This document shows positions 3,381-54,286 of a stretch of DNA of 54,336 nt, piece after piece. Location: positions 1-54,336 of IMG/VR virus record IMGVR_UViG_3300048927_000623. One strand, written 5' to 3'. The notes beneath the pieces were generated by a model. The model had not been told where the DNA came from, ran no database searches, and was given only the letters and a program-made list of their open reading frames with translations. The DNA is from a virus. The translations under genes and the position numbers were made by a program. Each line of letters starts with the position of its first letter. Position 1 is the first letter of the stretch.

Positions 3381-3429
3381 TGGTCGGAGTGGAGAGATTC
3401 GAACTCCCGACCCTCTGGTCCCAAACCAG
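3381..3429. repeat. attL core, tRNA-Pro 3' fragment
   Basis: 49 bp identical to 54210-54258. It covers the tRNA from the anticodon loop to the encoded CCA end (minus strand) and then diverges. It is the displaced chromosomal 3' end of the tRNA gene and is not a functional tRNA. Confidence 0.93.
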
Positions 3430-3579: not shown

Positions 3580-4791
3580 TCAAGCCGCCTTGTTGCGCTC
3601 ATGGCGAGTCGTCGATCCAACCTTCGGCTTTTTCGCGAATGTCTGGTGGACAGCGGAATACTCGCCTGGGATGACGTGCTTGTAGACCTTACGGATCACT
3701 TCGGGAGTGGTCGAAACGAAGTCAGCCACATCCTCGACCGAAACCCCGTGCTGAAGGAGCAGCGTCACGCACGTGTGCTTCAACGTATGACGGTTCACCT
3801 CCGCGGCGCGCTCTTCGCCGAGAACCTCGTGCTTCAGCGTATAGAATCCCTTCCGGCAGTCGACGGGCCGCCCCTGGTACTCGATCAGGTATCGCGTCCC
3901 CTTCATGGCGCCGCGACCATGATGCCAGCGCTTCATCAATCGCAACAGCGGATCCGGGATTAGGATCGGATCCGCTCTCTTGTTGTGAGGCGCCATCTCC
4001 TTATGAGCCGTTCGATAGAAAATGCCGTTTTCGAGATCAATCCACGGCCGGCCGGGTTCCTTCACGAAAGAAGCCGCCTGGATACGTTCGGCGCGTGTCC
4101 CAGTGAAAACAGCGACGGCGATGAATTTCCCGATGTGCTCCGCCACCTTGTGGGTAGGCTCCCCGTTGAACGTGTGGCGTTTCCACATCGCCCTCTGATA
4201 GAGCTTCTTGACTTCTTTCTCCGTGAAATAGTGCAGACGGCTGCCCTGAGCCTCGGGAATGTCATAGTTTAGTTCGTCATCGTACTTCTTGACCTTTCCT
4301 TCCTTGGCGCAGAAGTTCACGATGGCGCGAAGGAGGATAAGCTCGTTGCGGACAACCGACGGCTTGCGATCCTTTTGGTATTCCTTCGAAGTCTTCCGCT
4401 TGATTTCCGAGACGAACTTTTCGCCCCAGAACACCGACAACCGCTCGATCTGATCGAGATGTTCCTTGCGGCGGGCTTTAGACATCTTCGCGATGTCGTC
4501 CTCCTGCTCCTGCAGGTAATACAGCAACAGGTCGCCGATCTTGACCTCGGAAGCCAGCAGCCCATCGGTAATTTCGACTTTGGAGTATCGCTCCACGTTG
4601 TATTCGTGGAGCTTCAGCAGCGCTTCCTCCCGCGCTACTTTAGATCCCTCAGCCGTCGTGAAAGAGCATCCCGTCGCAACTTGCTTGCTTCCGTGCTTGA
4701 TGAACCAGGTGCCTTTGTGGGTGAGCTTGCCCGCTTTGTCGTAGCGGGGCTTTCGTTCGAGGATGTGGGGTTCTTCGACTTCTCGCGGCAT
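3580..4791 (-). CDS. int: Tyrosine recombinase (phage integrase)
   Basis: 403 residues from the ATG at 4791, which has AAAGGAG about 11 bases upstream; a longer in-frame ORF reaches 4971 but has no such signal. The N-terminal arm- and core-binding regions precede a catalytic domain with the first Arg in FTGTRAERIQ, the HTLKHT box (the second Arg replaced by Lys, as in some rhizobial integrases), and the nucleophile Tyr in VYKHVIPG. It integrates the phage into tRNA-Pro at the adjacent attL. The first 157 nt overlap the excisionase-like gene in another frame. A 7-bp hairpin with a 3-base loop (GACTCCG/CGGAGTC) lies just past the stop. Confidence 0.93.
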   Translation of the reverse strand: MPREVEEPHILERKPRYDKAGKLTHKGTWFIKHGSKQVATGCSFTTAEGSKVAREEALLKLHEYNVERYSKVEITDGLLASEVKIGDLLLYYLQEQEDDIAKMSKARRKEHLDQIERLSVFWGEKFVSEIKRKTSKEYQKDRKPSVVRNELILLRAIVNFCAKEGKVKKYDDELNYDIPEAQGSRLHYFTEKEVKKLYQRAMWKRHTFNGEPTHKVAEHIGKFIAVAVFTGTRAERIQAASFVKEPGRPWIDLENGIFYRTAHKEMAPHNKRADPILIPDPLLRLMKRWHHGRGAMKGTRYLIEYQGRPVDCRKGFYTLKHEVLGEERAAEVNRHTLKHTCVTLLLQHGVSVEDVADFVSTTPEVIRKVYKHVIPGEYSAVHQTFAKKPKVGSTTRHERNKAA

Positions 4792-5363
4792 TCTTCCAGC
4801 CACTCCTTTATCATCGTTCTCGTCACGTACATGTTCTTGTCGTTCGGCCGCAGGACAGCGAGCTGCCCACGCGATATGGCGCCGCGAAGCGTCTTCACCG
4901 TGATGTTTGGACTGGGCGCTCCGGGGATGTCCTTGCCGACATAAAGCTGGCCACCCAGTTCGGGCAGGCACACGACCTCGAACAAGGTCAGCGGCTCATC
5001 CGGATGCGGATCCCGAACCTCCCGAGCTGGAACCGACGACTTCGGATCCAGGGCGCGGCGGATGTCGTCGAGCGCCGCCAAGGCATCCTCTTGGTCACGA
5101 ACCTGACGAGCCACCAGATCCTCGAACTCCGCCATCACCCGGTTGACCTCGCGGTCAACCTTGGTGATGAAGGCTCCGTCGGGATCCTCGGGTCCGTCGT
5201 CCTCGGTCAGGCCACGAGCCGCCAGATAGCGATCCCAGTCATCCAACTGCTCTTCCGTCTCGCGCTGCTGCTCGTCCCGTTCGGCGTAGTATTCCCGCTC
5301 GTTGCGCTCGGCAGCCTGCAGGCGGTCGATGAACGGCTTGAGACTAACGATGTTGTCGGTCAC
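4635..5363 (-). CDS. Excisionase-like DNA-binding protein
   Basis: 242 residues from a GTG at 5363 preceded by AACGGAGG; a TTG ten codons upstream is possible. It starts with VTDNIVSLKPFID and a charged, coiled-coil-prone half (residues 10-110). A winged-helix-like segment follows: ITVKTLRGAISRGQLAVLRP, then YVTRTMIKEWLEECR, the usual look of a MerR/Xis-type helix-turn-helix. The Ser/Thr-rich tail (last ~50 residues) is encoded in the same DNA as the start of int. Position directly upstream of int and the DNA-binding fold suggest directionality control. An ACGGA-N4-TCCGT dyad covers its ribosome site and start codon. Confidence 0.72.
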   Translation of the reverse strand: MTDNIVSLKPFIDRLQAAERNEREYYAERDEQQRETEEQLDDWDRYLAARGLTEDDGPEDPDGAFITKVDREVNRVMAEFEDLVARQVRDQEDALAALDDIRRALDPKSSVPAREVRDPHPDEPLTLFEVVCLPELGGQLYVGKDIPGAPSPNITVKTLRGAISRGQLAVLRPNDKNMYVTRTMIKEWLEECREKSKNPTSSNESPATTKRASSPTKAPGSSSTEASKLRRDALSRRLRDLK

Positions 5364-5416: not shown

Positions 5417-7429
5417 TTAACGCTGCGCTGACGGTTTCGGTGAATCCTTTGTGAAATCCCCCTTATCCGAACGCGTGGCCTGTGTCCGGGGGATTTCTGC
5501 AGATTGCGCCAGCGCGAGCTGGAGGGGCTTGCCGTGATCGCGAACGGCGGCCACCACCACTTCGCCGGAGATCTCGCCCTTGTCAGCAAGCTCCTCAGCA
5601 AGGCGCTCGATGACGTCGCGATAGCGTTCCACAAGCTGGCTCGCGCGCAGGAGCTGCTCGTGCAGGATTGCATCGACCTCGGGTTCGAGACGGTGGCGGC
5701 GCAGCGACATGTCCGCTCCATAGCCGTCGGACATCAGGCTAGCGCCGAAGCCGGCGACCGCGAGCATGTGTAGCGCGGCATCGGTCGCCTGCTGCAGGTC
5801 ATGAGCGGCGCCATCGCAGTGATCCCCGATGAGCAGCGTCTCGGCTGCTACGGATCCGAGATAGATCGCGATCTCGTTCTCCCACCAGGCCTTGCTCTTG
5901 CGCTCTCCGAACTTCCCGGAGAACTCGGCGTAGCCAGCCGCCTGCGCCGCGACGTTGGCGAACACTTGCTTGTGGACGACGATGTTCTTGAGATCGCGGT
6001 GACCCAGAGCAATGCCTACCACCGCGTGGCCGAGTTCATGGATGGCCGTCTCCAAGCGCTGCTCGCGCGACAGCGGGCGCACTTCCGGCATCGACGCGGA
6101 GACATGTTCAACGCTGACCGGCACGTGCTTGCGGCGCGCCATGCGGCGCGCATCGCGAGCGACGCGCTCCAGATCTGCGCCGGAGAACCCTTCCGCGCGG
6201 GCGACGACGGTCGACACGTCGACGGCTGCCTGCAGATGATACTGAAGGATCGCCGAGCGCGCGGCAGCGTCCGGCAACTCGATCGCAATGTGGCGGTCAA
6301 GACGGCCGGGGCGCAGCAACGCAGCGTCGATGTTCCCGGGATGGTTGGTCGCACCGATCACGATCACGCCGGGGCGATCGATGGCGCCGTCGAGGCATTC
6401 GAGAAGGCCGTTCACGACACCGCGATTCCAGTCGTCGTAGGAGGCCTTGCCCAGCGACCCGCGCTGCGGGAAGTTGTCGATTTCATCGATCAGGATAATC
6501 GATGGAGCGTTCTCGCGAGCTTCCTTGAAAGCGTCACGCATCGCGCGCAGCAGGCTTCCCTGATGGCCATCACGCGTGCCGAGCCAGGTCGAATAGCTGC
6601 CGACGACGAGGTGCGCGCCGAGGCTTTTCGCCAGCGCACGGGCGAACGTGGTCTTGCCGCAGCCGGGCGGGCCAGAGAGCAACAGGCCGGAATCGACGTC
6701 ATCCCACGGGATGATGCTTGCGTCGTAGTCTTCAAGGTCGCGCTTCAGCTCCAGACCCCATTCCTTGGCTGCACCGTATCCGTGAAGATCCTCCAGACGC
6801 GGGCCATCCTCCGTCTTCTGCGCTAAGACGGCAACCGTTTCCGTCTTCTGCTCCGGGATGGCGCGCATACGCTGGAGAACGTTCTTCACGCCGCGACCGG
6901 TCTTGCGGAGCAGAAGACGGACTTCGGCGGGCAACGACATGATCTCGTCGGCCTCGTCGATGGTGACCTCGGTGCCCGTGACTTCGGCGATCGCGCGCTG
7001 CACGAGCGACATTTCCAGATTGGCGACGTCGATGACGGCATCGGCGATGGCGGACGTGCGCGAAGCAAGGACGGCCTCCTTGTCGCCGCGGCGGCAGATG
7101 AAGACCGAGCGGAAGTTGGCGAAGTTCACCATCTTCCAGGGATCTTCCTTGTTCGGAATGACCTTGTCGTTGACCTTGCGCGGAGTGATTTCGAACGTGT
7201 CGGCGCGGTAGTCGTTGCGGCGGGAGAAGTCGTATTCATCCTCGCCTTCGCTCTCTGTCGCCATTGCCTTGAGGATGTCGTATGCGGCCTGCTGCCAGTG
7301 GCCTGCACCATCGTCGCCCGGAATGACGACGAGGAGCACGAAGGCGCGGCTACCGCGATATGGACGCAGCGCGCGCTGCATATGGTACTCGGCGATCCAG
7401 CGGTCGATGGATTTCGTTTCGTCGGACAT
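5417..7429 (-). CDS. Soluble FtsH-like AAA+ zinc metalloprotease
   Basis: 670 residues from the ATG at 7429; a GTG four codons earlier is less likely. Residues ~1-230 are a phage-specific N-terminal region without membrane segments. An AAA+ module follows: Walker A GPPGCGKT (~253), Walker B IILIDEID (~312) and second region of homology ATNHPGNID...RPGRLDR (~360-380). The C-terminal half is an M41 peptidase with HELGH (~464) and the third zinc ligand Asp in GAAHDLQQATDAA. All catalytic residues of both activities appear present. Cellular FtsH is membrane-anchored; this lacks helices, so it would degrade cytoplasmic targets. Substrates are unknown; a host factor or phage regulator is plausible. 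It lies in the int operon. Confidence 0.87.
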   Translation of the reverse strand: MSDETKSIDRWIAEYHMQRALRPYRGSRAFVLLVVIPGDDGAGHWQQAAYDILKAMATESEGEDEYDFSRRNDYRADTFEITPRKVNDKVIPNKEDPWKMVNFANFRSVFICRRGDKEAVLASRTSAIADAVIDVANLEMSLVQRAIAEVTGTEVTIDEADEIMSLPAEVRLLLRKTGRGVKNVLQRMRAIPEQKTETVAVLAQKTEDGPRLEDLHGYGAAKEWGLELKRDLEDYDASIIPWDDVDSGLLLSGPPGCGKTTFARALAKSLGAHLVVGSYSTWLGTRDGHQGSLLRAMRDAFKEARENAPSIILIDEIDNFPQRGSLGKASYDDWNRGVVNGLLECLDGAIDRPGVIVIGATNHPGNIDAALLRPGRLDRHIAIELPDAAARSAILQYHLQAAVDVSTVVARAEGFSGADLERVARDARRMARRKHVPVSVEHVSASMPEVRPLSREQRLETAIHELGHAVVGIALGHRDLKNIVVHKQVFANVAAQAAGYAEFSGKFGERKSKAWWENEIAIYLGSVAAETLLIGDHCDGAAHDLQQATDAALHMLAVAGFGASLMSDGYGADMSLRRHRLEPEVDAILHEQLLRASQLVERYRDVIERLAEELADKGEISGEVVVAAVRDHGKPLQLALAQSAEIPRTQATRSDKGDFTKDSPKPSAQR

Positions 7430-7480
7430 GTGTTCACCCACGTTTGTTGATGGAAAAGCGGTTCGGTGGGTTGATGAGAT

Positions 7481-12196: not shown

Positions 12197-12592
12197 ATGA
12201 TCATCGAGACATTTCCGGAATACGCGGCAGCGCCCCGCCGTGCAGCGCCATTCACGAGCATTGGGAAGGTCTGGGAGATGGACATCCTCGCCCGGGTCTT
12301 CTCTGCCCTTGGCCCGTCCAGTCTGATCGTTTCCGATGGCCTTTCATTTCTCGTCGATCGGCTGGTGCGCGGTGAGCGCCATGAAGGATTCGTCAGAGTC
12401 TCCGATGTGAATGATGACCACGGTGACGTCGCCATTGCCGACTATCTGCTGGATGATCTCCAGGAGGGGTGCCGCCGGCTTTCAGTTGCAATTTCCGAGG
12501 ATCAGTGTCGGTCGGTGCAGGAATCTCGAATCCTTGACGCAGCAGCCGACCATGCGTCCCGCGTGTGCCGCGAGATCTGCCGACTAGCCTGA
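12197..12592 (+). CDS. Hypothetical phage protein
   Basis: 131 residues from the ATG at 12197, chosen because GGGAGG lies 9 bases upstream and a promoter 20 bases before; a longer frame runs through the terminator. Mixed alpha/beta, acidic C-terminal half (DVNDDHGDVAIADYLLDDLQEG). No family recognised. It is the first gene of the unit leading to the methyltransferase. Confidence 0.62.
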   Translation: MIIETFPEYAAAPRRAAPFTSIGKVWEMDILARVFSALGPSSLIVSDGLSFLVDRLVRGERHEGFVRVSDVNDDHGDVAIADYLLDDLQEGCRRLSVAISEDQCRSVQESRILDAAADHASRVCREICRLA

Positions 12593-12645
12593 CCTCTGCC
12601 CTTTTACGAAGGATTCAACTACGGTCCTTATTCACGGAGGTAACC

Positions 12646-14145
12646 GTGAAGGATCCGAACATGCGCTTTGTAGAACTTTTTGCTGGAATTGGCGGCCTTG
12701 GCCTAGGTCTGGAACAGGCTGGTCTGCAGCCGCTGACGGGCTACGAGAAATGGGACAAGGCGGTCGACGTTTGGCAGTTCAACAGCAAGAGCAAGGCGTT
12801 CCAGATCGACCTTGGAGATGTCGCCGCGGCCTCTCTGCACATCATGGGATACTCGCCCCGGATGATCGTGGGAGGTCCACCCTGCCAGGACTACTCCGAG
12901 GCTGGGAAAGGCGTGCTTGGCAAGAACGCCGCGATGACCCAGGCCTTCGCGATGATCATCGCCGTGGTCCGACCGGAATGGTTCATTTTCGAAAACACCC
13001 GGAGGGCGCCCCTGAGCCTCAACTACCGTCAGGCCAGATCGATATGGAAGCGAGCAGGCTACGGCCTGACGGAGATCCTGCTCGATGCGTCCTACTACGG
13101 AACGCCACAGTCTCGGCAGCGCTACTTCTGTCTCGGCCGGCTCGGTGAGGTGGATGGCTTCCTGGAATCTGCGATCATTGACGCAGCGTCGAAGAACCAG
13201 GTTCCCGTCCGTTCGATCCTCGATCCGGATCGCTTTCCCGACGACGCGGAACTGATCCGGCGCGGTGGATATTTCGTCAGGCCTTACACTGGCGGGAAAG
13301 GCGTTCATCGTCTCGATAGACCAGCGCCGACCATCATCCGGTCGTCGACGGGGAAGCCCAACAAGGCATATCGCGAGAACCCGCACCCGACCGACCACAT
13401 GGCCTATGACAAAGCCTTCCAGCTCAAAGAACACCAGGCTATGCGAATCCAGGGCTTCCCTGCAGATTTCAAGATCGTGGGCACGGAGCGTTTGAAAAAG
13501 GGAAAAGATTCATACGCGAAGCGCGACACGATGCAGATGATCGCGAATGCCGTGCCTCCGACCTTGGCCGAGAAGATCGGTGAAGTCATCCTCGCTAGGG
13601 CTGAAGGAAGGTCGATCCCCGCCATTGACCCGGGATTCGAGAAGTTCCTGCAGGACCATCCCGACAAGGATTTCACTCCGGCGAGCATCGCCAATGTCAA
13701 GTCGCGGGTGAACCGGGCCAGGCGCCTGCTGCACGGTCGGACATATGCCGACATCGCCCTCGAACTCGCCGAGCTGGAAGACACGGTGGATTTCGCCACT
13801 CTTGATGTGCGGCAGAAGTCCGATCTCCGCGCTGCGCTGCGCCTCTACCACGAATACATGTCCGACCGGCCGCTTTCGAAATACGCTCGCAAGATCCTGA
13901 AGAAGGGCGAGAAGCCCATGCCGGTCATGCCGGATTTCGCCCGCCGCCCTCACGCTGCCGAAACCACGCCGACGGACGTGGCGCCATCCGAGTCCTCTGG
14001 CGCCAGGAAGTTCCGAAAACGCTACGTCCCGACTCCCGAGGAGGAAGCGAATTATGCGGAACTCGACACCGCCCCGGATCTCGACCCGCGCCACGAGCCG
14101 GACGTGAAGCCCTCGGACAGCGACCGCCTACCTCGCGACGAATAA
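12646..14145 (+). CDS. DNA (cytosine-5) methyltransferase with C-terminal extension
   Basis: 499 residues from the GTG at 12646 with GGAGG five bases upstream. Motif I FAGIGGLGLGLEQAG, motif IV GGPPCQDYSEAG with the catalytic Pro-Cys, motif VI ENT in place of ENV, motif VIII PQSRQRY, and motif X NAVPPTLAEKIGE. Residues ~360-499 are an extension not seen in minimal enzymes, with a basic helical part (IANVKSRVNRARRLLHGRTYADIAL) that may bind DNA. No partner endonuclease is adjacent, so it looks like an orphan phage methylase that protects phage DNA from host restriction or controls transcription. Specificity is unknown. It is distinct from the second C5 methylase at 50946. Confidence 0.87.
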   Translation: MKDPNMRFVELFAGIGGLGLGLEQAGLQPLTGYEKWDKAVDVWQFNSKSKAFQIDLGDVAAASLHIMGYSPRMIVGGPPCQDYSEAGKGVLGKNAAMTQAFAMIIAVVRPEWFIFENTRRAPLSLNYRQARSIWKRAGYGLTEILLDASYYGTPQSRQRYFCLGRLGEVDGFLESAIIDAASKNQVPVRSILDPDRFPDDAELIRRGGYFVRPYTGGKGVHRLDRPAPTIIRSSTGKPNKAYRENPHPTDHMAYDKAFQLKEHQAMRIQGFPADFKIVGTERLKKGKDSYAKRDTMQMIANAVPPTLAEKIGEVILARAEGRSIPAIDPGFEKFLQDHPDKDFTPASIANVKSRVNRARRLLHGRTYADIALELAELEDTVDFATLDVRQKSDLRAALRLYHEYMSDRPLSKYARKILKKGEKPMPVMPDFARRPHAAETTPTDVAPSESSGARKFRKRYVPTPEEEANYAELDTAPDLDPRHEPDVKPSDSDRLPRDE

Positions 14146-14150
14146 TCCGC

Positions 14151-14179
14151 TTGGTACTTTCAGCCGGCCGACTCACCAT
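14151..14179 (+). promoter_or_regulatory. Phage promoter, family copy 2
   Basis: TTGGTA, 17-base spacer with the same GCCGGCCGAC as copy 1, CACCAT. It serves the gene at 14209. Confidence 0.45.
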
Positions 14180-14208
14180 TCCTATTCAGGGGATGGGAGA
14201 CCTCGGGA

Positions 14209-14802
14209 ATGGCAGCCAAGCATAAGCGTCGGAAAGGCAAGAACGCCGCGGTGACATCCGTCGCCGAGGACAAGTTCGACCGCGGCACGCTGCAGACCCG
14301 CGCCCGCATCACGCCGGATCCGCTTCTCTCCGCCACCCTCGAACCGCACCGCGCACAAGCTGGCCTCGAAATCCGCGCTGCCCTCGAAGAAGGGGTCGGG
14401 GCGCAGGGCCTGGACATCGTCCGCATCGGCATGGGCGGCGGCGCCTCGTCGGGCCACCACGAGAAGATCCCTCTGCAGCGAAACATCGAACGCCGCATGT
14501 GGCGCGATGCCTGGCGCTGCGACGCGGCCCGCAAGGGCATCCACACCGTCTTCGCCGAGGAATTCGCCCTTGGCAATTCCATCCGTCAGATCGCGCAGCG
14601 CCACGTCCTGAGCCGCCACAAGGTCACCGAGCTCGTGAATGAGGGCCTCGACCTCTACGCCGATCTGCGCGGATTCCGGCAGAGGCAGAACCATCAACGA
14701 ATTTCGGTCTACGAGAACGAATCCTTCGTCCCTCCGGAGTCCGATCAGCCCATCTACGCGATGCCCCCGAAGGCCGCGCTGGTGCGGCGAAACTTTGCCT
14801 GA
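14209..14802 (+). CDS. Putative HTH regulatory protein
   Basis: 197 residues. The very basic N-terminus (MAAKHKRRKGKN) is followed by a Gly-rich turn and a helix-turn-helix-like segment, NSIRQIAQRHVLSRHKVTEL (~residues 123-142). The general plan resembles phage late-gene activators such as RinA or ArpU, but the match is weak. Its own promoter and position between early genes and the structural block fit a regulator. Function is an inference. Confidence 0.6.
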   Translation: MAAKHKRRKGKNAAVTSVAEDKFDRGTLQTRARITPDPLLSATLEPHRAQAGLEIRAALEEGVGAQGLDIVRIGMGGGASSGHHEKIPLQRNIERRMWRDAWRCDAARKGIHTVFAEEFALGNSIRQIAQRHVLSRHKVTELVNEGLDLYADLRGFRQRQNHQRISVYENESFVPPESDQPIYAMPPKAALVRRNFA

Positions 14803-14830
14803 GAACAAAACAAGAATTGGGAGGAAAATC

Positions 14831-15406
14831 TTGGAAGCAATCAACAGAAAGACCGCAGAAGACGAGGCCATCGTGAACGTTCTCGCGAACGCAGCGAAGG
14901 ATGCGACGGATCAGACGCGCTCGGCCCAGGCCGATTTCAAGCGCGGTTCAGAGCTGCTCCGGCGCGCCAATATCCTGCATAAGCGGGCGGCCACCAATCA
15001 CCTCTACGCAAAGGTGGCAGAACAGGAAGCATCGGAGACGGCGCCGCTGCGCGCGCTGCTCGCCGAGACCGACGATCTTGCCAAGAAGCGCAGGATCCAG
15101 CGCGAGATCGACGGCTATCGAATCCTGAACGTCCAGCGGCCGGTCCCGGGACTCGGCAACAAGCTCAAGACGCTGCCGATCGCCAACCGCGCTCTCCGCC
15201 GGAAGATGGCCCACGATGTCCGTCACGGCATGAAGCACGCGGATCTCGTCGGCGCCTACGGCCGGCTCGCTCTCCATGTCCTCGAAGCCGATGCGTTCAA
15301 CAAGGCGCTGGCCGGCCGCCATGAGCTGGGTCTCAGCAAGGATGTCCAGTTCGCCGGAACGGCAGCGCTCGTCGCCGAGGATGCGACAGAAAGGGAGGCG
15401 GCATGA
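14831..15406 (+). CDS. Hypothetical helical protein, TTG start
   Basis: 191 residues from the TTG at 14831, chosen for the GGGAGG six bases before; an ATG-started version begins inside the previous gene in another frame. Almost wholly helical with a long coiled-coil-like stretch (residues ~5-95, including ETAPLRALLAETDDLAKKRR). The stop overlaps the next start (ATGA). No family recognised. Coupling to the Ntn-hydrolase gene hints that they work together. Confidence 0.63.
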   Translation: MEAINRKTAEDEAIVNVLANAAKDATDQTRSAQADFKRGSELLRRANILHKRAATNHLYAKVAEQEASETAPLRALLAETDDLAKKRRIQREIDGYRILNVQRPVPGLGNKLKTLPIANRALRRKMAHDVRHGMKHADLVGAYGRLALHVLEADAFNKALAGRHELGLSKDVQFAGTAALVAEDATEREAA

Positions 15407-15963
15407 CGGTCATCGCCTCCATCGTCGAGAACGGTAACATCTGGATGGCCTCCGATCAGCAGTCATCCGGCTTCGTGAAGTTCATCCAGGAATCGCACAA
15501 GGTATTCCGCAACGGAGACTTCCTGATCGGGGTCTCCGGCACCGTCCGCATCACCAACCTTCTGCGGCACTCGTTCGAGCCGCCCAAGCGCCATCCCGAT
15601 GTCGACATAGACAAATTCATGGCGACCGAGTTCGTGAACGCCATGCGCCTCTGCCTTCAGAACGGCGGGCAACTCGAGAACAGCAAGGGCGTGGAGTCTG
15701 CTTGGCATAGCATCGTCGTCGGACATCATGGCAAGATCTTCATCGTCGACTGCGACTTCGCGGTGGTGAAGTCGAACGCCCCTTGGATGGCGACAGGCAG
15801 CGGCGGCACGGTCGCTCTCGGATCCCTGTGGGCAACGTCCACGCTGGATTGGACACCGGAGCAGCGTTTGGAGAACGCCGTACAGGCGGCCATCGCCATG
15901 GATGTCTATTGCGGCGGCCGGCCTGAGATCATTTGGCTTCCGGCAGGAAAGGAGGCGGCGTGA
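15403..15963 (+). CDS. Proteasome/HslV-like Ntn hydrolase
   Basis: 186 residues, coupled to the gene before it (ATGA). After removal of Met1 the protein begins with Thr, the nucleophile of proteasomal peptidases. Asp sits at mature position 17 (ASDQQ) and Lys at 32 (HKVF), close to the Thr1/Asp17/Lys33 triad of HslV and proteasome beta subunits. The FLIGVSGTVRITNLL and APWMATGSGGTVALGS segments match the family's strand-helix pattern. It would form a barrel-like peptidase fed by an ATPase, or cut small substrates alone. No HslU-like gene is near; the only AAA+ protease subunit in the prophage is the FtsH-like protein. Substrate unknown. Confidence 0.75.
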   Translation: MTVIASIVENGNIWMASDQQSSGFVKFIQESHKVFRNGDFLIGVSGTVRITNLLRHSFEPPKRHPDVDIDKFMATEFVNAMRLCLQNGGQLENSKGVESAWHSIVVGHHGKIFIVDCDFAVVKSNAPWMATGSGGTVALGSLWATSTLDWTPEQRLENAVQAAIAMDVYCGGRPEIIWLPAGKEAA

Positions 15964-16250
15964 TCAAGCTCGACGTTCTTAATGCACCGACACCTGTTCT
16001 CTGGGTCGGTCTCTTCCTCACCTTCAACGGCGTACTTGCAGTCCTGAACGCCATCACCTGGTCTCTGCTCTGGCTGGTCGGTTTCGAATCCGTATGGACC
16101 ACCACCGTCATGCTGACTGCATCCCTGCTGTTCATCGAATTTCATTTCGCCCGCAGGATCATTCGCGATCTGGAGCACGGCAGGAGGATGTTGAAGATGA
16201 TGGACAAGATCATCGGCAAGGCCGCGGATGCCGGGAAGGAGGACGCATGA
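15960..16250 (+). CDS. Two-helix membrane protein
   Basis: 96 residues from the GTG at 15960, which overlaps the upstream stop and has AAAGGAGG before it. Two membrane helices, about residues 14-35 (VLWVGLFLTFNGVLAVLNAI) and 40-60 (LVGFESVWTTTVMLTASLLF), then a charged cytoplasmic tail. Its size and layout could fit a holin, but the lysis genes are elsewhere; superinfection exclusion is another option. Function open. Confidence 0.62.
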   Translation: MIKLDVLNAPTPVLWVGLFLTFNGVLAVLNAITWSLLWLVGFESVWTTTVMLTASLLFIEFHFARRIIRDLEHGRRMLKMMDKIIGKAADAGKEDA

Positions 16251-16486
16251 TCAAGTGGGAGCAGAATGGGCCGCTACACGATGGCCTTCTCGGGAACATC
16301 GTGGTGGTCGATGTCTTCGACGGCCCCAGAGGTGCCGCCTGGAGCGTACTTGGCATACCTACCGGACGTGGCAAGACTCCTTATTTCGTCCACGCACCCA
16401 CAGTCGACGAGGCGAAGGCTGCCGCTGAGGCCTACGTGGCAGCTTGGATGTCTGATGCCGGTGTCGTGAAGGCAGGTGGGGCATGA
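16247..16486 (+). CDS. Hypothetical small protein
   Basis: 79 residues, start ATG overlaps the preceding stop (ATGA) and has AAGGAGG nearby. Beta-rich N-terminus (NIVVVDVFDG) and an alanine-rich C-terminal helix (TVDEAKAAAEAYVAAWM). Part of a chain of overlapping small genes. No family recognised. Confidence 0.6.
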   Translation: MIKWEQNGPLHDGLLGNIVVVDVFDGPRGAAWSVLGIPTGRGKTPYFVHAPTVDEAKAAAEAYVAAWMSDAGVVKAGGA

Positions 16487-16770
16487 GCGACGACGTCGAA
16501 TTTGAACCCGGAAAAGCCTACGTCCGCCGCGATGGATCCGACAAATGGAAGGAACTTGGCACGGCGATCGCGCTGCTCCCCGGCGATGGCCCCGTAGAAC
16601 TCCGTCGGAGTATTCCGGTCACCTCGATCATTTTCCTTTCGGGCGGCGCCGAAGTCGACGTCACCGATGACTTCGACCTGGAGAACGGCATCACGCTGAC
16701 GGTTACCTTCCCCACGCTCGAAACCGCCGAGGAACATGATCGCAAGTGGCACCGCAAGGAGGATACATGA
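16483..16770 (+). CDS. Hypothetical small protein
   Basis: 95 residues, coupled on both sides by ATGA overlaps. Acidic and beta-rich (VELRRSIPVTSIIFLSGGAE, VDVTDDFDLENG). No membrane segment, no recognised family. Coupling and codon use argue for a real gene. Confidence 0.6.
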   Translation: MSDDVEFEPGKAYVRRDGSDKWKELGTAIALLPGDGPVELRRSIPVTSIIFLSGGAEVDVTDDFDLENGITLTVTFPTLETAEEHDRKWHRKEDT

Positions 16771-17174
16771 ACCCCACCCAGTATTCCGCAGACTTCCTGC
16801 TCGATGTCGCCGTTAGCGCGAACATGCCGTCGTATCGTCGCGACAACGATTGCGCCAACATCCTGTTCGATGCTCGGGGCGGCTGGAAGGTCTCCGCGTT
16901 CTACGACGTGGGTGACTTCGACTTCATCGATCACTTCGTGGCGCCCGATGGCGAAGTGATCGATCCTTGGGAATGGGAGTTGGGAGATGCTCCGGACTTC
17001 AATCCCGAGCGCGAGAAGATCATCTGGTGGCGGGAGACGGCCTCCCATCCTTCGGTGCCATCGGAAGCCCCGTCGCTTCAGCAAGCCATCTTGATAGCGG
17101 TATCGAAGCGGCTGCTGTGGCAGGACTGGCTCGATGGCTTCAAGGTGATGACCGAATGGCCGATCAAGCGTTGA
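16767..17174 (+). CDS. Hypothetical acidic protein
   Basis: 135 residues from the ATG at 16767 (ATGA overlap, AAGGAGG upstream). Rich in Trp and Asp (GGWKVSAFYDVGDFDFIDHF, DPWEWELGD). Last gene of the coupled chain; its end overlaps the converging gene at 17164 by 11 bp. No family recognised. Confidence 0.6.
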   Translation: MNPTQYSADFLLDVAVSANMPSYRRDNDCANILFDARGGWKVSAFYDVGDFDFIDHFVAPDGEVIDPWEWELGDAPDFNPEREKIIWWRETASHPSVPSEAPSLQQAILIAVSKRLLWQDWLDGFKVMTEWPIKR

Positions 17175-17727
17175 AATGATCCCGCAGCGCCTTCAGCCGC
17201 GCCGCCATCTCGTCAGCGGTCAACGGCACCGGAGCTGACGGCGCCCGCATCTTGATAGTCTTCGGAGGCCGCTCCGGCTTCGGTGTCGCAACGGCTTCCT
17301 TGGCACGCTGCTTATGAGCCTTCTGTCGCGCCTGCTCGAACTTGTTCTGATCCGGCAGCTTGGGTGTCGTCGGCAGCGGTGCCTTCGGCTTCCGGGGGCT
17401 GTCCCCGAAGATGCGGCCGAGGAAGAAATAGACGATCCGAGGATTCCATTCGGATCCGGCAGCCGTCTTGATGCCTTCCTTGTTCAGAAGCCGAGAGACA
17501 TCGGCTGGCTTGCGGAATCCCGCCCGAGCGTATCCGCGAATCTTCTCCGTCAGCGTGGTGGCCATCTTCTCGGCCGCCGCCTCCGTCAAACCGAGATGGG
17601 CGCGATCCTCCTCGCGGATCGTCGGGGCGACCTTCCCGTAGTCGGATCCCTTGGACATCGGTGCCCGGTCGCGCTTCTGCGCTCCCCGCTGCATCGATCT
17701 CACCTGCGACTTGCTTCCCATTCCCAT
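17164..17727 (-). CDS. Putative DNA-binding protein with recombinase-like HTH
   Basis: 187 residues, the only leftward gene between 11 and 48 kb. The middle (GFRKPADVSRLLNKEGIKTA then GSEWNPRIVYFFLGR, ~residues 70-107) resembles the helix-turn-helix of the serine-recombinase accessory domain (cycles of LN.EGI.T..G..W....V...L). No catalytic domain is present, so it would only bind DNA. The C-terminal third is basic and Pro-rich. Lone opposite orientation next to a divergent promoter suggests a regulator, possibly in lysogeny, but this is inference. Confidence 0.6.
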   Translation of the reverse strand: MGMGSKSQVRSMQRGAQKRDRAPMSKGSDYGKVAPTIREEDRAHLGLTEAAAEKMATTLTEKIRGYARAGFRKPADVSRLLNKEGIKTAAGSEWNPRIVYFFLGRIFGDSPRKPKAPLPTTPKLPDQNKFEQARQKAHKQRAKEAVATPKPERPPKTIKMRAPSAPVPLTADEMAARLKALRDHFNA

Positions 17728-23385: not shown

Positions 23386-24012
23386 ATGACTGAGGAAAGT
23401 CGGAAAAAACCGACCAAATCGCCCTCAATGTCAACTATTTCCGACAAAAGGCCGAAGAAGCTCACTCAGGAAGCTCTCGCCAGACACCTCTTTCTCGGAA
23501 GGGGCAGCCGCAAGGTACGGGAGCTTTTCGAAAAGGGTGTTTTCCCTGCAACGGTCGACCAGTCGAACCTCACGGTGGCTGACCTCGACATCTGCCGGGA
23601 AGCCTACATCGAACACCTCCGCGCAGCCGCTGCCGGCCGCGCCGAGAACCAGCCTTCCGACGATCCTGTCGATGACAGCCGCGATCCGGATGTGCAGCTC
23701 GCTCTCCTTCGCATCGAGCAGATCGAACTGGCGAGGATCAAGAAGCGGAAGACGCTCGGAGAACTCGTCGAACGCACAGATCTCAGACTGGCCGTCTCCG
23801 GTGCCTTCACCCGCGTGAAAACGGTCCTTCTCAAGATTTCGAAGAAGCATGCCGGAACCATGATCGTGATGGAGGACGAGCTCGTGCTTCGGGAGTATCT
23901 CGATGACCGCATCAGAGAAGCCCTCGACGAACTCGCGTCCACGCCCGTCGAAACGATCGGCAGGGAAGTCACGGCGGACGACATCGAAGTCGACTTCGAA
24001 GACCAGGACTAG
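23386..24012 (+). CDS. Terminase small subunit (Nu1-like)
   Basis: 208 residues from the ATG at 23386 with ACGGAGG upstream. N-terminal helix-turn-helix-like part (LTQEALARHLFLGRGSRKVRELFEKG), a central helical oligomerisation region (LRIEQIELARIKKRKTLGEL, VERTDLRLAVSGAFTRVKT) and an acidic tail, as in Nu1-type small terminases. It recognises cos and recruits the large subunit. The large-subunit gene overlaps its last 110 nt in another frame. Confidence 0.82.
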   Translation: MTEESRKKPTKSPSMSTISDKRPKKLTQEALARHLFLGRGSRKVRELFEKGVFPATVDQSNLTVADLDICREAYIEHLRAAAAGRAENQPSDDPVDDSRDPDVQLALLRIEQIELARIKKRKTLGELVERTDLRLAVSGAFTRVKTVLLKISKKHAGTMIVMEDELVLREYLDDRIREALDELASTPVETIGREVTADDIEVDFEDQD

Positions 24013-25999
24013 CGTCACGGACACCCTGTTCGTCGGCTGCGATAAGGTCGCCGCTGACATCCGCAAGGCGTTCGCCATCATCAAGCCGCCCAAGCGCATC
24101 CGGATCTCGGAGTGGGCGACGAATGCCCGTCTCAAGGACGGCAGCCGATACCATCCGTGGCCATTCCAGATCGAATGGCTCGACGAGATGAACAATCCGC
24201 GGACCAGGAAGATGACCGTCATGAAGTCGACCCGTGTCGGCTACACGCAGGCCATCCTCGCAGGTCTCGGCTATTTCACGGCGCACGATCCACGCAACAT
24301 CCTGATGGTCCGCCCGACGATCAAGGATTCGCAGAAGTTCTTCAAGGAGCATGTCGCCCTCGTTCTGAGCTGGCCGATCATGAAGTCGCTGAGCCTCGGC
24401 AAGGCGGTCTTCGGCGCGCTGCGCGACACGATCACCGAGAAATACTTCCCCGGAGGCTTCATCAAGGGTGTCGGATCCGAATCCCCGAACGGCCTTCGCG
24501 ATCTCGATGTCGATGTCCTTATCATGGACGAGATGGACGGCTTCGCTATTACAGCGGGTGTCGACGGTGACCCGAGCAAGCTCGCCGAAGAACGACTGCT
24601 GCAGAGCTACGATCCGCGCAACATCGCTGGAAGCACGCCAACGGACGAGGCTGTCAGCAAGATCAACCGACGTTTCCTGGAGTCTGATCAGCGCCGCTAT
24701 CACGTTCCTTGCCCGACCTGCAAACACATGCAGGTGCTGGTGTGGGGAAATGGCGGCAAGGATGATTCCGGCCTCCACTGGTTCCCCAAGAAGGCGCCGA
24801 CGGAATACTGGTATCAGTGCGAGAAGGGTTGCCGGATCCCGGAGGCCAAGAAGCTCTGGATGCTCGAAAACGGCAAGTGGATCGCACAGTTCCCCGAGGT
24901 CTACGAGCGCACCGGCCATGCCGGGTTCCACATCAACGCCCTCTATTCCTTGCAGCCGAACGCCAAGTGGCCTGATCTGGTCGAGAAATTCCTGGATTCC
25001 TACAAGTCTCCGGTGACCTTCAAGACCTTCGTCAACACCACGCTCGGCGAGGTCTGGCGGGTCATGGGCGATCAGCCGGATTGGAAGATCCTTTCCGACC
25101 GTCGCGACGACTGGAAGCAGGGCATCGTTCCCTACGGTGGCTGTTTCTTGACCGCCGCCGTGGATATCCAGGCTGCCGACGGTGGCCGTCTCGAATGCTT
25201 CGTGTGGGCGCATGGCCGCGGCGGATCGTCATGGCTGGTCGAACACAAGGAGTTCATCGGGTCGCCATATGAGGCGAAGGTTTGGGATGAATTGACCGAG
25301 TTCGTCCATCGGAAGTGGTCGCACGAGAACGGAATCAGCATGCTCGGCCTTGAACGCACCGCGGTCGACGTCGCCTTCGCCACCCGTCCTGCCTACAACT
25401 GGTGCAGGAAGATGGGGCTGGACAAGTTCGTTCCAATCCGCGGCTCGCAGAACCTGAACGCCCCGCCGATCTCCGCTTCGACCACCATGGAACTGCAGAA
25501 CAAGCAGGGTGCCAAGGCGAAGACGCAGGAAGTGCGTGTGTTCATGATCGGCGGCCACGTCCTGAAGCAGGAACTCTATGGTCTGCTGCGCCTCGAAAAG
25601 CCTTCCAAATCGGACAAGCCGTATCCTCTGGGCTACGTCCACATCCCGAAGTGGCTGGACGAAGGCACCCTGAAGGAGCTGGTCGCCGAATACTGGCATG
25701 CCGAAAAGGCCGAATGGGTGAAGACCGGGGCGAACGAAATGCTCGACTGCTGGTGCTACGCCCGCGCCATGGCCATCGCCAGAGACATGGAAAAATGGAC
25801 GGAAGCCCAGTGGGTCGCACTTGAGGCGATTTATGGCAACCCCGCCTTCGTCATGCCCCTGGAGCCGGAACAGCCGAAGATCACGCAGCGCGCCGACGAT
25901 GTCAGCGCCGATCCGGATTCGCAGCCGGCCAAGCCAGTAGCAGCACAGAAGCAGCGTCGTCAGCAACAGTCGTGGCTGTTCGGTGGTGGACGCAGATAG
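23903..25999 (+). CDS. Terminase large subunit (GpA-like)
   Basis: 698 residues if the ATG at 23903 is used; it has GGGAG eight bases upstream. The first ~36 residues overlap the small subunit and are Ser/Thr/Lys-rich, so a later non-ATG start is possible. The ATPase part has an unusual Walker A-like MKSTRVGYTQ and Walker B VDVLIMDEMDGF. A four-Cys zinc-like pair (CPTC...CEKGC) lies near residues 270-310. The C-terminal nuclease region follows. This is the lambda GpA family, which cuts at cos and pumps DNA into the prohead. Confidence 0.92.
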   Translation: MTASEKPSTNSRPRPSKRSAGKSRRTTSKSTSKTRTSVTDTLFVGCDKVAADIRKAFAIIKPPKRIRISEWATNARLKDGSRYHPWPFQIEWLDEMNNPRTRKMTVMKSTRVGYTQAILAGLGYFTAHDPRNILMVRPTIKDSQKFFKEHVALVLSWPIMKSLSLGKAVFGALRDTITEKYFPGGFIKGVGSESPNGLRDLDVDVLIMDEMDGFAITAGVDGDPSKLAEERLLQSYDPRNIAGSTPTDEAVSKINRRFLESDQRRYHVPCPTCKHMQVLVWGNGGKDDSGLHWFPKKAPTEYWYQCEKGCRIPEAKKLWMLENGKWIAQFPEVYERTGHAGFHINALYSLQPNAKWPDLVEKFLDSYKSPVTFKTFVNTTLGEVWRVMGDQPDWKILSDRRDDWKQGIVPYGGCFLTAAVDIQAADGGRLECFVWAHGRGGSSWLVEHKEFIGSPYEAKVWDELTEFVHRKWSHENGISMLGLERTAVDVAFATRPAYNWCRKMGLDKFVPIRGSQNLNAPPISASTTMELQNKQGAKAKTQEVRVFMIGGHVLKQELYGLLRLEKPSKSDKPYPLGYVHIPKWLDEGTLKELVAEYWHAEKAEWVKTGANEMLDCWCYARAMAIARDMEKWTEAQWVALEAIYGNPAFVMPLEPEQPKITQRADDVSADPDSQPAKPVAAQKQRRQQQSWLFGGGRR

Positions 26000-26007
26000 G
26001 AGGTCGA

Positions 26008-26202
26008 ATGGCCTGGACACAAGCCGACATCGACCGCCTCAAGAAGGCCATGGCCAGCGGCGTGAAGCAGAGCATGGAAGGTGGTCGCATGATCACCTTC
26101 GACACCTTCGAGGCGATGCAGAGCCGTCTCGCTTTGATGGAGGCCGAAGTCTCCAGACGGCCTACATCCTTCAACCGCAAAGTCCGCTTCGTCAACGAGT
26201 GA
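26008..26202 (+). CDS. gpW-like head-tail joining protein
   Basis: 64 residues, AGGAGG before the ATG at 26008. Two helices around a beta-hairpin (MAWTQADIDRLKKAMASG, GGRMITFDTFEAMQSRLALM) match lambda gpW in size, pattern and gene order between GpA and portal. gpW fills the portal channel after packaging. Close match by pattern. Confidence 0.82.
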   Translation: MAWTQADIDRLKKAMASGVKQSMEGGRMITFDTFEAMQSRLALMEAEVSRRPTSFNRKVRFVNE

Positions 26203-26211
26203 GGTCAACAG

Positions 26212-27795
26212 ATGCACCTTAACATCGTCGACAAGGCGGTCATGTACTTCAACCCGGAGGCTGGCCTTCGGAGAAGCGTCGCCCGCACCGCCATATCTCT
26301 CTCGGCCTCCAGCGGAAAGCGGTACGCAGCAGGGCAGATCTCGCGCAATCGCGACGACCGCAATGCCACCACTCTAGGCCCTGACACTCTGACCGGCGCA
26401 TACATGGTCAGGATGAGGGCGAGAGCCAGGGCGCAGTATCGCGACCACGAGCTGGCCAAGCGCATGGTAGAACTCTGGGTCAACCACCTGATCGGCAAGG
26501 GCGTGACCGTCACGTTCTCTGCAGGTGAAGGTGTATCGCCCAGAGTGGCGGCGATCCAGAACAAGATCTTCGCCGAATGGGCGAATTCTCCGCTCTGCGA
26601 CTCCACCGGGCTGACATCGCTGGCCGGATTGCTGTCTCTGGCGGTCACCATGCTCGTTCGGGATGGCGAAGTCCTGATCCGCCGAGTGTGGATCGGCAAG
26701 GACCACCCGGACTTTGCGAAGATGAAGGTTCCGTTGAAACTTCAGGTCCTCGAGCCCGATTTCCTCGACGAAGGAAAGAATGGCGAGGCCGAGAACGGAA
26801 ACCCAATCATCATGGGTGTCGAGTTCGATAAGCGATATCCCGATGTCCGGGTCGCATACTGGATCTTCGACAGCCACCCCGGCGAAAGCACGTGGAAGGG
26901 ATGGGCAAACAGAGCGATGTCGCGCCGGGTTCCGGCAAGCGAGATCATCCACATGTTCGTCCGCGACAGGAACCACAACCGCGGTGTGACCTGGTTCCAT
27001 CCGGTTCTGGATTCCCTGCACGACCTCAAGGAATACCTCGACGCGCTGCGCATGAAGGCGAAGATCGAGGCGTGCTTCAGCCTGATCATCACGAGTTCCA
27101 GCCCCGGAACGCAGAATACGCCGATCGAGAACAGCCAGTCGGGCGCCATTGAGGATTACGAGGAAATTTCCCCCGGGATCATGCGCTACGCCCGACCGGG
27201 CGATTCCGTCACCGCCATCGATCCGTCGAATAGCTCAGGCCACAACATGCTCGTTCAGACGCTCGTTCGTCTGGCGGCAATCGGCATGGGACTGACCTAC
27301 GACCAGGCATATTCGGATCTCACCGGAGCCAACTATTCGTCCCTTCGATCCGGCAAGATGGAGTTCAACCGCTCTGTCGGCCAGAAGCAGAACGTCAACA
27401 TCCGCCCTGGCGCCGAGATCATCGCCCAGTGGTTCATCGAAGCGGCCAATCTGACCGGATTGCTGAAAACCGGAGCCTACAAGGCCGAGGCGACGTTCGA
27501 CCCGCCAGATCTGGTTGATCCTGCAAAGGACGGCGCAGCGGTCAGGGCGAGCATCGAGATGGGTCTCTCCAACTTCGTGGAAAGCCTCGCTGCCGACGGC
27601 AAGGACTTCGATACGCACATGGATGCCATCGCGGTCGAAGACGAAGGTCTGAAGCGCAGGTTCGGCGACGAGGTCGAGCATCCGTTCATCCAGACGCTCA
27701 AGAAGCGCGCCGCAGCGGGAGCAGCCGATGCCGCCCCTGACGATCCGAACGACGACGAGGCTAAGCCTCCACAGCGGCAGAAAAAGGCAGCCTGA
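26212..27795 (+). CDS. Portal protein (lambda gpB-like)
   Basis: 527 residues, AGGTCAACAG leader then ATG at 26212. Lambda-type portal pattern: TGAYMVRMRARARAQYRDHE, then GEVLIRRVW, DRNHNRGVTWFHPVLDSLHDL, and LTYDQAYSDLTGANYSSLRSG in two neighbouring blocks. It forms the dodecameric ring at the capsid vertex. The stop overlaps the next start (TGATG). The acidic Ala-rich tail is typical. Confidence 0.92.
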   Translation: MHLNIVDKAVMYFNPEAGLRRSVARTAISLSASSGKRYAAGQISRNRDDRNATTLGPDTLTGAYMVRMRARARAQYRDHELAKRMVELWVNHLIGKGVTVTFSAGEGVSPRVAAIQNKIFAEWANSPLCDSTGLTSLAGLLSLAVTMLVRDGEVLIRRVWIGKDHPDFAKMKVPLKLQVLEPDFLDEGKNGEAENGNPIIMGVEFDKRYPDVRVAYWIFDSHPGESTWKGWANRAMSRRVPASEIIHMFVRDRNHNRGVTWFHPVLDSLHDLKEYLDALRMKAKIEACFSLIITSSSPGTQNTPIENSQSGAIEDYEEISPGIMRYARPGDSVTAIDPSNSSGHNMLVQTLVRLAAIGMGLTYDQAYSDLTGANYSSLRSGKMEFNRSVGQKQNVNIRPGAEIIAQWFIEAANLTGLLKTGAYKAEATFDPPDLVDPAKDGAAVRASIEMGLSNFVESLAADGKDFDTHMDAIAVEDEGLKRRFGDEVEHPFIQTLKKRAAAGAADAAPDDPNDDEAKPPQRQKKAA

Positions 27796-29774
27796 TGACC
27801 GATATGCTTAGAAACCTGAACCTCGCGACCGTGTATCGCGAGGCCGAAATCACGCGTGCCCAGCCAGCCGAAGGGCAACCGGACAACGTGTTCATCGCCT
27901 GCTACTCGACAGGCGCCTCCGTCCGTAGGTGGAACTGGGACTACGGGGACTTCATCGAAGTCCTGTCGATCCAAGCCGGCCACATCCGGACGACTCGCCT
28001 CGACACCGGGGCGCTGCCGATCCTTCTCGATCACGAACAGGGTGTCAGGAACACTTTCGGCGTTGTCGAAAAGCACTGGATCGAGAACGGTGCCGCATAT
28101 GTCCAGTTCCGCATGGAAACGGGCACGCCGGAAGCCGAGGCCATCCTCAACAAGCTCCGACAGGGCATCGTCCGCAGCGTCTCCGTCGGCTACCGCATCC
28201 ACGCTCTGCTCGAAAGCCGCGAGGACGGGAAGATCCCGACCCTGACGGCCACCGACTGGGAGCCATTCGAGATCAGTCTGGTCTCGGTTCCTGCCGACGC
28301 TGCGGCAACGACCATCCGCTCGGATGGCGACGCGTCGGCTTACCCCTGCCACCTGATCCTCAACCGTACCCCCGAATCCGAAACAGGAGAATCCCATATG
28401 AGCGGAAACGCCACTCCCACGAATATTCAGACCGAGTCGCAGACGCAGGCTCCGGTCGTTGAGAGCCGCGCAGCTCCCGCTGCCACGCCCGTTGACGTGA
28501 ACGCTGCGATCGCTCGCGCCCTTGAGGCCGACCGCGCTCGTGGCCTCGCCATCCGCACCCTTGGCGCTCAGCATGGCATTGATGCCGCTGCCGTCGATGC
28601 CCTGGTTGCCCAAGGTCTCAGCGAAACCGATGCTGGCTTCCGCATGCTCGGCATGCTGGCCGAGCGTAGCCAGTCCACCGGAACGGCATCCACCATCCGC
28701 GTTGGCTTCAGCTACGACGATCCGAACGTTGTCGCCCGGGCATGGGAGGACGCGCTTACCGCGAGACTTTCCCCTGAGGCCGTCAGGCCGGAAGGAAAGG
28801 CTCTCGAATTCATGGGCCGTTCCATGATGGAGGGCTACCACGAAGTGCTGCTTGCCCGCGGCGAACGTCCGATTACAAGCAAGGCCGCCCTCATTGAGCG
28901 TGCGCTGCACACGACTTCGGACTTCCCCAACATGCTTGGCGGTGTGATCCACAGGAGGGTTGTCGCTGACCACGCCGCAGCACCTGCGACGTTCCGCGAG
29001 CTGTCCAGCCAGATCGACTTCACCGACTTCCGCGATCAGGAATTCCTGACCGGATCCGAGTTCCCGGCTCTCCAGAGGCTCGGAGAAGGCGGAGAAATCA
29101 GGTCTGCATCGATCGACGACGGCACGCTGGAAACGGCGCGCGTCGACACGAAGGCGATCAAGATTCACGTGTCCCGCGAACTGCTCGCCAACGATAGCAC
29201 TGGCTATCTGAGCCAGCACTTCGGCAAGATGGGGCGCCGCATCGCTGCTCAGGAGAACAAGGCGGTCTACGATTACCTTGGCTCCAATCCGAAGCTGAAG
29301 CGCGACAACAAGGCTGTGTTCCACGCAGACCACAAGAACCTGCATGCGACAGCCGTTGCGTCTCCGGACGAGGCGATCCTGTCGGCGATGCGCACCGTGA
29401 TGGCGACCTACGAGTCTGACGACATCCCGCTGAATTTCAACCTGGCTTACCTGCTGATCGATCCGTCTCTCCAGACGGCGACCGAGAAGCTGCTCTCCGA
29501 TGTCTACTCGACGAAGACCGGAGACGTGAACGTGTTCGCCAACAAGTTCAAGATCATCGTCGACCAGGCCATTGCCTCGCATAATGCCTGGTACGGCTGG
29601 ATCAGCAAGGCCGACACGTCCTTCCTCGTCCACGGCTACTACAACGGCGAAGGTCCGAAGGTGGACACTCAGCCGGGCTGGAACACCCTCGGAATGGAGC
29701 TGCGCGTCTACAAGGACTTCGGCTTCGGCATCATCGGCGACAAGGGCGCCTACAAGGTCAAGAAGTCGGGCTGA
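27795..29774 (+). CDS. Prohead protease - major capsid protein fusion
   Basis: 659 residues, coupled to the portal gene. Residues 1-190 are an HK97-type prohead protease with His in ILLDHEQG (~80) and Ser in VRSVSVGYR (~128). A Pro/Thr/Gln-rich linker (~200-240, starting near an internal SHMSGN with AGGAG before it) leads into a helical scaffold-like part (~240-330). A Mu gpT-like major capsid domain fills the rest (RRVVADHAAAPATFRELSSQ, KIHVSRELLANDSTGYLSQH). Proteolysis between the parts would release the capsid protein. The ATG near 28399 has AGGAGAATCCCAT before it and could also make a scaffold-capsid product alone. Confidence 0.87.
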   Translation: MTDMLRNLNLATVYREAEITRAQPAEGQPDNVFIACYSTGASVRRWNWDYGDFIEVLSIQAGHIRTTRLDTGALPILLDHEQGVRNTFGVVEKHWIENGAAYVQFRMETGTPEAEAILNKLRQGIVRSVSVGYRIHALLESREDGKIPTLTATDWEPFEISLVSVPADAAATTIRSDGDASAYPCHLILNRTPESETGESHMSGNATPTNIQTESQTQAPVVESRAAPAATPVDVNAAIARALEADRARGLAIRTLGAQHGIDAAAVDALVAQGLSETDAGFRMLGMLAERSQSTGTASTIRVGFSYDDPNVVARAWEDALTARLSPEAVRPEGKALEFMGRSMMEGYHEVLLARGERPITSKAALIERALHTTSDFPNMLGGVIHRRVVADHAAAPATFRELSSQIDFTDFRDQEFLTGSEFPALQRLGEGGEIRSASIDDGTLETARVDTKAIKIHVSRELLANDSTGYLSQHFGKMGRRIAAQENKAVYDYLGSNPKLKRDNKAVFHADHKNLHATAVASPDEAILSAMRTVMATYESDDIPLNFNLAYLLIDPSLQTATEKLLSDVYSTKTGDVNVFANKFKIIVDQAIASHNAWYGWISKADTSFLVHGYYNGEGPKVDTQPGWNTLGMELRVYKDFGFGIIGDKGAYKVKKSG

Positions 29775-52109: not shown

Positions 52110-52129
52110 GATCACTCCCGATTCTTTTC

Positions 52130-52155
52130 CACAGGATATCAACAGGCATCCTGTG
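52130..52155. promoter_or_regulatory. Inverted repeat before methylase gene
   Basis: CACAGGAT (52130) and ATCCTGTG (52148) separated by 10 bases, 20-45 bases before the methylase ATG. A second pair TAAAC/GTTTA lies just upstream. Likely an operator for methylase control. Confidence 0.5.

Positions 52156-54209: not shown

Positions 54210-54286
<77 letters not shown>

Follow-up and report, generated by a model that had tools for sequence, protein, structure and literature searches.

A divergent proteasome-type Ntn threonine peptidase predicted in a temperate phage

The analyzed stretch of DNA, hereafter the window, comprises 54,336 nucleotides of the IMG/VR virus record IMGVR_UViG_3300048927_000623 (positions 1 to 54,336). 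The source record is a temperate phage, with direct repeats, an integrase, and terminase, portal, head, and tail genes (Table 1). The repeats are identical over 49 bases, the right one lies inside a tRNA-Pro(tgg), and they are probably the attL and attR of a prophage. The gene under study is preceded by genes for a C5 cytosine DNA methyltransferase, a protein of 197 aa that weakly matches a helix-turn-helix domain (E 0.09), and a helical protein, and it is followed by a gene for a small hydrophobic protein. A second C5-type DNA methyltransferase match was found near the right end. Close to the integrase, the phage encodes an FtsH-like protein whose AAA domain also resembles the IetA models of PADLOC, and no clear membrane helix was found in the first 240 residues of this protein (top 19-residue hydropathy 1.16).

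Table 1. Coordinates of the features in the window
Feature	Position	Strand	Basis
Direct repeat, left	3381-3429
Integrase	3580-4971		
FtsH-like protein, 674 aa, AAA domain and M41 peptidase, Walker A and HELGH	5417-7441	-
C5 cytosine DNA methyltransferase, same gene run as the peptidase	12565-14145	+	PF00145, E 1.5e-40
GGGAGG preceding the TTG start of the upstream ORF	14819-14824	+	sequence
Helical protein (weak model), 191 aa, TTG start	14831-15406	+	ORF list; no detectable relatives
Shine-Dalgarno-like GGGAGG preceding the peptidase ATG	15393-15398	+	sequence
Proteasome-like Ntn threonine peptidase (predicted), 186 aa	15403-15963	+	PHROG 1040, AF2 model, BPH/HslV structural match
Start Met and Thr2 (mature Thr1, nucleophile), without propeptide	15403-15408	+	alignment, structural alignment
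Asp18 (mature Asp17)	15454-15456	+	78/78 relatives
Lys33 (mature 32; proteasome Lys33 equivalent)	15499-15501	+	78/78 relatives
Gly46, aligned to proteasome oxyanion Gly47	15538-15540	+	alignment
Ser133, aligned to proteasome Ser129 (GSG)	15799-15801	+	alignment
Asp167 (mature 166) to Cys170 (mature 169), aligned to proteasome Asp166 and Ser169	15901-15912	+	alignment
Packaging/head module	23903-29774	+
Terminase large subunit	23903-25999	+
Portal	26212-27795	+
Head maturation protease and major head protein	27795-29774	+
Second C5-type DNA methyltransferase match	50946-52142	-	PHROG 116
Direct repeat, right	54210-54258
tRNA-Pro(tgg)	54210-54286

Judged from its sequence, the peptidase ORF is a genuine gene and not a chance reading frame, given its match to PHROG 1040, its homologues in phages and plasmids, and its invariant residues. 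The first-pass annotation had placed the ORF at these coordinates with a Met-Thr start, and had assigned Asp and Lys to mature positions 17 and 32; the sequence bears out all of these. The end of the upstream ORF overlaps the peptidase start by four bases (ATGA, 15403-15406). Given this overlap and the GGGAGG sites, both ORFs are likely translated and coupled.

The structure of the peptidase was modeled with AlphaFold2 from a 79-sequence alignment (A2), which was restricted to full-length sequences that begin with Met-Thr. The model had a mean pLDDT of 94.1 and a pTM of 0.90, and its predicted fold is that of a proteasome-type Ntn protein, with a beta-sandwich core and flanking helices. The top Foldseek match was BPH (TM 0.80), followed by HslV, and VIA-align returned Z scores of 21.7 for BPH (174 residues, rmsd 2.5), about 20 for HslV (20.2), and about 18 for 20S beta subunits. 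In BPH and several HslV entries, the structural alignment opened at residue 2 of the model and residue 1 of the known chain. A search of a viral library yielded 37 matches with E values of at most 0.001, the best of them at a TM of 0.94.

In the proteasome, Thr1, Asp17, and Lys33 form the catalytic triad, Gly47 contributes the oxyanion hole, and Ser129 and Asp166 belong to a second triad (PMC4792962). Within the 79-row alignment, selected for Met-Thr starts, T2, D18, K33, G43, R49, G132, G134, and G140 were invariant; Thr1, Asp17, the Lys33 equivalent, and Arg49 were kept in 78/78 relatives among these selected rows. Before row selection, the Met-Thr start was found in 141 of 148 homologous loci: 125/132 on the plus strand, a count that includes the window itself (L087), and 16/16 on the minus strand. 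The seven others comprised two loci at contig edges (L027, L102), one fragment (L113), and four broken frames (L103, L108, L115, L118), in which Met-Thr could still be recognized in a different frame or segment. The first-pass annotation had proposed a proteasome/HslV-type peptidase with an intact triad, and had named as grounds against it a fold unlike the Ntn sandwich or the loss of Thr1 in all close homologues. An Ntn sandwich was obtained in the prediction against HslV and BPH, Thr1 was retained in nearly all loci, and the proposal is supported by both the fold model and the residue conservation.

The remaining proteasomal positions set the window protein apart. At the Gly46 position, the 78 relatives have Ser in 67, Thr in six, and Gly in two; at the Ser133 position, Cys in 69 and Ser in seven; at the Asp167 position, Ser in 54, Asn in 16, and Asp in none; and at the Cys170 position, Val in 76. 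As aligned, the window protein thus retains counterparts of the oxyanion glycine, Ser129, and Asp166 at positions where most relatives carry other residues. The glycine and Asp166 are also present in L190, L193, and L196, three phage proteins that belong to a second homologue group described below. The window peptidase also weakly matched the archaeal proteasome beta and HslV models of NCBIfam (E 2.5e-4 to 8.8e-4, below their cut-offs), while none of four relatives scanned against these models did so, which agrees with its fuller proteasomal residue set. Its best sequence match in the PDB was a proteasome beta-5 subunit (E 0.0016).

The peptidase family is widespread among phage records, plasmids, IMG/VR, and GTDB. 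The PHROG 1040 profile ('peptidase HslV family') matched residues 1-173 of the peptidase (E 3.3e-22), and tblastn searches with the peptidase found 150 phage records (E limit 0.01) and 26 plasmid records, with 39% identity to a protein of the Moorella phage. Additional members were found in 181 IMG/VR stretches and 28 GTDB loci. Searches of Pfam and PADLOC with the peptidase gave no matches, single-protein scans of viral and genome contigs revealed no close relatives, and positions 14000-17200 of the window had no DNA similarity to phages. In the taxonomic family of the genome that best matched a flanking glycosyltransferase, a peptidase copy was present in 0 of 31 genomes.

The nearest relatives of the window protein form a group, F1, whose hosts include phages, rhizobial and Paraburkholderia plasmids, alphaproteobacteria, Actinobacteria, Paraburkholderia, and Myxococcota. 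The plasmids are large (H61-H80; L001-L004), and many come from rhizobia isolated from legumes and from Paraburkholderia of Mimosa nodules. In the order to which Skermanella (genome G004) belongs, 53 of 82 genomes carried the F1 gene, which was nearly fixed as a stand-alone gene in part of the order. No other gene accompanied it in all 24 loci examined from this order, where only overlapping frames of the gene itself were constant; Skermanella and Azospirillum loci were part of this context set. In the order of a Devosia genome, the gene was rare (3/397 genomes). The broken copies mentioned above came from Bradyrhizobium, Mesorhizobium, and a genome of the Devosia order. A further scan revealed the second group, F2, with 80 kept loci, of which 79 had a Met-Thr start. 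The F2 homologue L259 starts with Met-Ser, pointing to a possible Ser1 nucleophile; a Ser1 nucleophile is likewise described for BPH outside Betaproteobacteria (PMC5777263).

In trees of 69 and 44 proteins, the window protein fell outside the F1 clade (support 100/97 and 99/85), on a long branch (1.8 to 2.2) that makes its placement rough, and with a bootstrap that had not settled in the first tree. By these sequence trees, it is a divergent member of the family and a lone, roughly placed deep branch. Proteins of PHROG 1040 phages (T5-like phages, Moorella phage MTATph1, and Psychrobacter phage D'Alembert) share homology, the Met-Thr start, and the triad with it; unlike them, it lies outside their supported clade and keeps the equivalents of the oxyanion Gly, Ser129, and Asp166.

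Proteins of this kind have already been described. A 2021 survey reported 22 new proteasome homologs, among which PPH and AAH occur in phages, with AAH being a sequence cluster of alphaproteobacterial and actinobacterial homologs (PMC8665760). The distribution of F1 fits that of AAH, and F1 is a putative AAH group. The window protein resembles AAH in having relatives in alphaproteobacteria, Actinobacteria, and phages, no propeptide, and no AAA+ partner, but differs in branching outside F1. PPH is likewise a phage-borne group I homolog, but it has about 140 residues and no helix H2 (PMC8665760), whereas the window protein has 186 residues and both helices (48-57 and 69-87 in the model); length and the presence of H2 rule out its identity as a PPH. 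BPH (5ovs, 5ovt) is its best structural match, with only 21% sequence identity. The elongated, highly acidic pore loop of BPH (PMC5777263) is absent from the window protein, where the stretch after the second helix (88-103) is short and has two acidic residues, E92 and E98. The window protein is a divergent addition to a kind already known, and the remark of the first-pass annotation that active phage versions are rarely discussed is partly outdated by PPH and AAH. Two other phage papers, in their available parts, merely annotate such a gene (PMC7289586; PMC8953757).

The first-pass annotation had also suggested that the coupled upstream gene encodes a helical adaptor or scaffold, and that conserved pairing with it be sought. 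The overlap and the likely coupling stand, while the helicity comes from a weak single-sequence model (pLDDT 70.5, pTM 0.33). No relatives of the upstream protein were found at E 0.01 in 267 loci or in a scan of the viral collection, and a search against phages returned only matches at E = 1; a conserved adaptor is thus unsupported. Among family loci, an ORF of at least 60 aa ended in an ATGA overlap in 52 of 124, compared to 10 of 124 in a control frame, both counts being inflated by near-identical loci that were retained. Coupling is frequent, yet a start written ATG-ACN always includes TGA. The coupled proteins were unrelated, as 54 of them fell into 35 clusters (the window's own counted twice), and a common upstream partner was rejected on this ground.

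The reading we favor, at a probability of about 0.7, is that the product of the gene is a proteasome-type Ntn threonine peptidase and belongs to the phage-borne 'group I' (the BPH/HslV-like branch); the enzyme would be self-compartmentalizing, ATP-independent, and activated by Met removal. Its catalytic activity is predicted from the modeled fold and the intact residues. A host methionine aminopeptidase would strip Met1 and expose the amine of Thr1, the subunits would assemble into a double ring resembling those of BPH and HslV, which would enclose the active sites, and the ring would cut unfolded or specific cytoplasmic proteins during phage growth, without a dedicated AAA+ unfoldase. Host proteins or surplus phage proteins of the lytic cycle would be the simplest guess at a substrate. 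The leaderless Met-Thr start in most loci fits activation by Met removal. For BPH, removal of the start Met was shown by mass spectrometry, the protein forms tetradecamers, its Thr1 bound epoxomicin, and according to the available text it has no known AAA+ partner (PMC5777263). Ten window proteins, one of them the FtsH-like AAA+ protein, were looked for in the 267 loci and none recurred with the family, which agrees with the statement in the available text of the 2021 survey that neither genomic context nor co-occurring AAA+ interactors suggested a function (PMC8665760). The BPH authors showed inhibitor binding but discussed whether activity might call for an unknown cofactor or be confined to few substrates (PMC5777263), and the window peptidase may similarly be fussy or inactive alone.

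The neighborhoods of the relatives bring in a role in virion assembly, where the peptidase would complement the head maturation protease as a second protease, for instance by clearing scaffold or misassembled head or portal proteins. In 67 non-redundant F1 loci of IMG/VR, the commonest neighbor clusters were portal (28), head maturation protease (20), terminase large subunit (16), and major head protein (11). Any head or packaging gene was found in 42/67 F1 loci (17/32 with full flanks), 17/49 F2 loci, and 3/23 GTDB loci, where the F1 counts arise partly by construction, as the home-made head profiles were derived from F1 loci. The terminase family PHROG 2, the only head-module test that used an outside family, was searched in 44 of 80 viral loci, picked for long contigs and little redundancy; 24 of the 44 records had no match, and four of the 20 matches were weaker than E 1e-8. 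A terminase lay within 5 kb of the gene in 11 of these 20 records, while 4.2 were expected under random placement (KS p 0.0005, linear, or 0.005, circular). The corresponding portal count (16/26, with 6.1 expected) is biased, since the portals used to build its profile were themselves neighbors of the gene. In four loci (L015, L038, L053, L054), a portal-cluster gene overlapped the peptidase start by ATGA, and a prohead-protease-like ORF came next after the peptidase or, in L053, one gene later; PHROG names back the gene calls in L038 and L053, while those in L015 and L054 were made by eye. A location near the packaging/head module is thus a tendency among temperate-phage relatives and not a rule.

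The window phage does not follow this tendency closely: its peptidase gene lies about 8 kb before the terminase, in the same gene run as the DNA methyltransferase, and a head protease is already encoded by the phage itself. The presence of a head maturation protease in 25 of the 67 relatives' loci also argues against the peptidase being its replacement. Moreover, in T5-like and other large phages the gene is surrounded by nucleotide-metabolism genes; T5-like phages and Geobacillus virus E3 place it beside ribonucleotide reductase, dihydrofolate reductase, thymidylate synthase, or RNase H. A role in virion assembly is therefore considered unlikely. The broader proposal that temperate phages use a proteasome-like chamber in packaging or head assembly alongside the head maturation protease, with the window protein as an early-branching member with a full proteasomal active site, is speculative and appears improbable.

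It is likewise unlikely that the peptidase depends on an AAA+ partner, be it HslU of the host or a different protein such as the FtsH-like one of the phage. HslV (ClpQ) shares the fold and the triad with the window protein, and the phage does encode an AAA+ protein that contains both a Walker A and a HELGH motif. However, that protein has its own M41 domain, is encoded on the opposite strand at a distance of 8 kb, and, as noted above, does not accompany the family. The scores of the peptidase with the HslV models fell far short of the cut-offs (20.1 bits, cut-off 137, for NF003964 and 19.0, cut-off 157.75, for TIGR03692), and no HslU partner was seen among the genes examined. An Ntn enzyme with another reaction, such as a narrow ligase or amidase, would find a precedent in the monomeric ligase connectase of the same superfamily (PMC8665760) and in the changed second-shell residues of the relatives, but it is very improbable for the window protein, which retains the complete proteasomal set and whose model has no helical insertion between the early strands, the mark of connectase (PMC8665760).

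Overall, the original observation is correct and its core reading, a proteasome-type threonine peptidase, is supported, in a divergent member of a kind already described. In the literature searched, from which subscription journals were largely missing, we found neither a functional study of any phage proteasome homolog nor a report of the head-module tendency. The link of temperate-phage relatives to the head module, absent from the available text of the 2021 survey, offers a testable lead. The window protein keeps more of the proteasomal catalytic residues than its relatives, which makes it well suited to initial biochemical testing.
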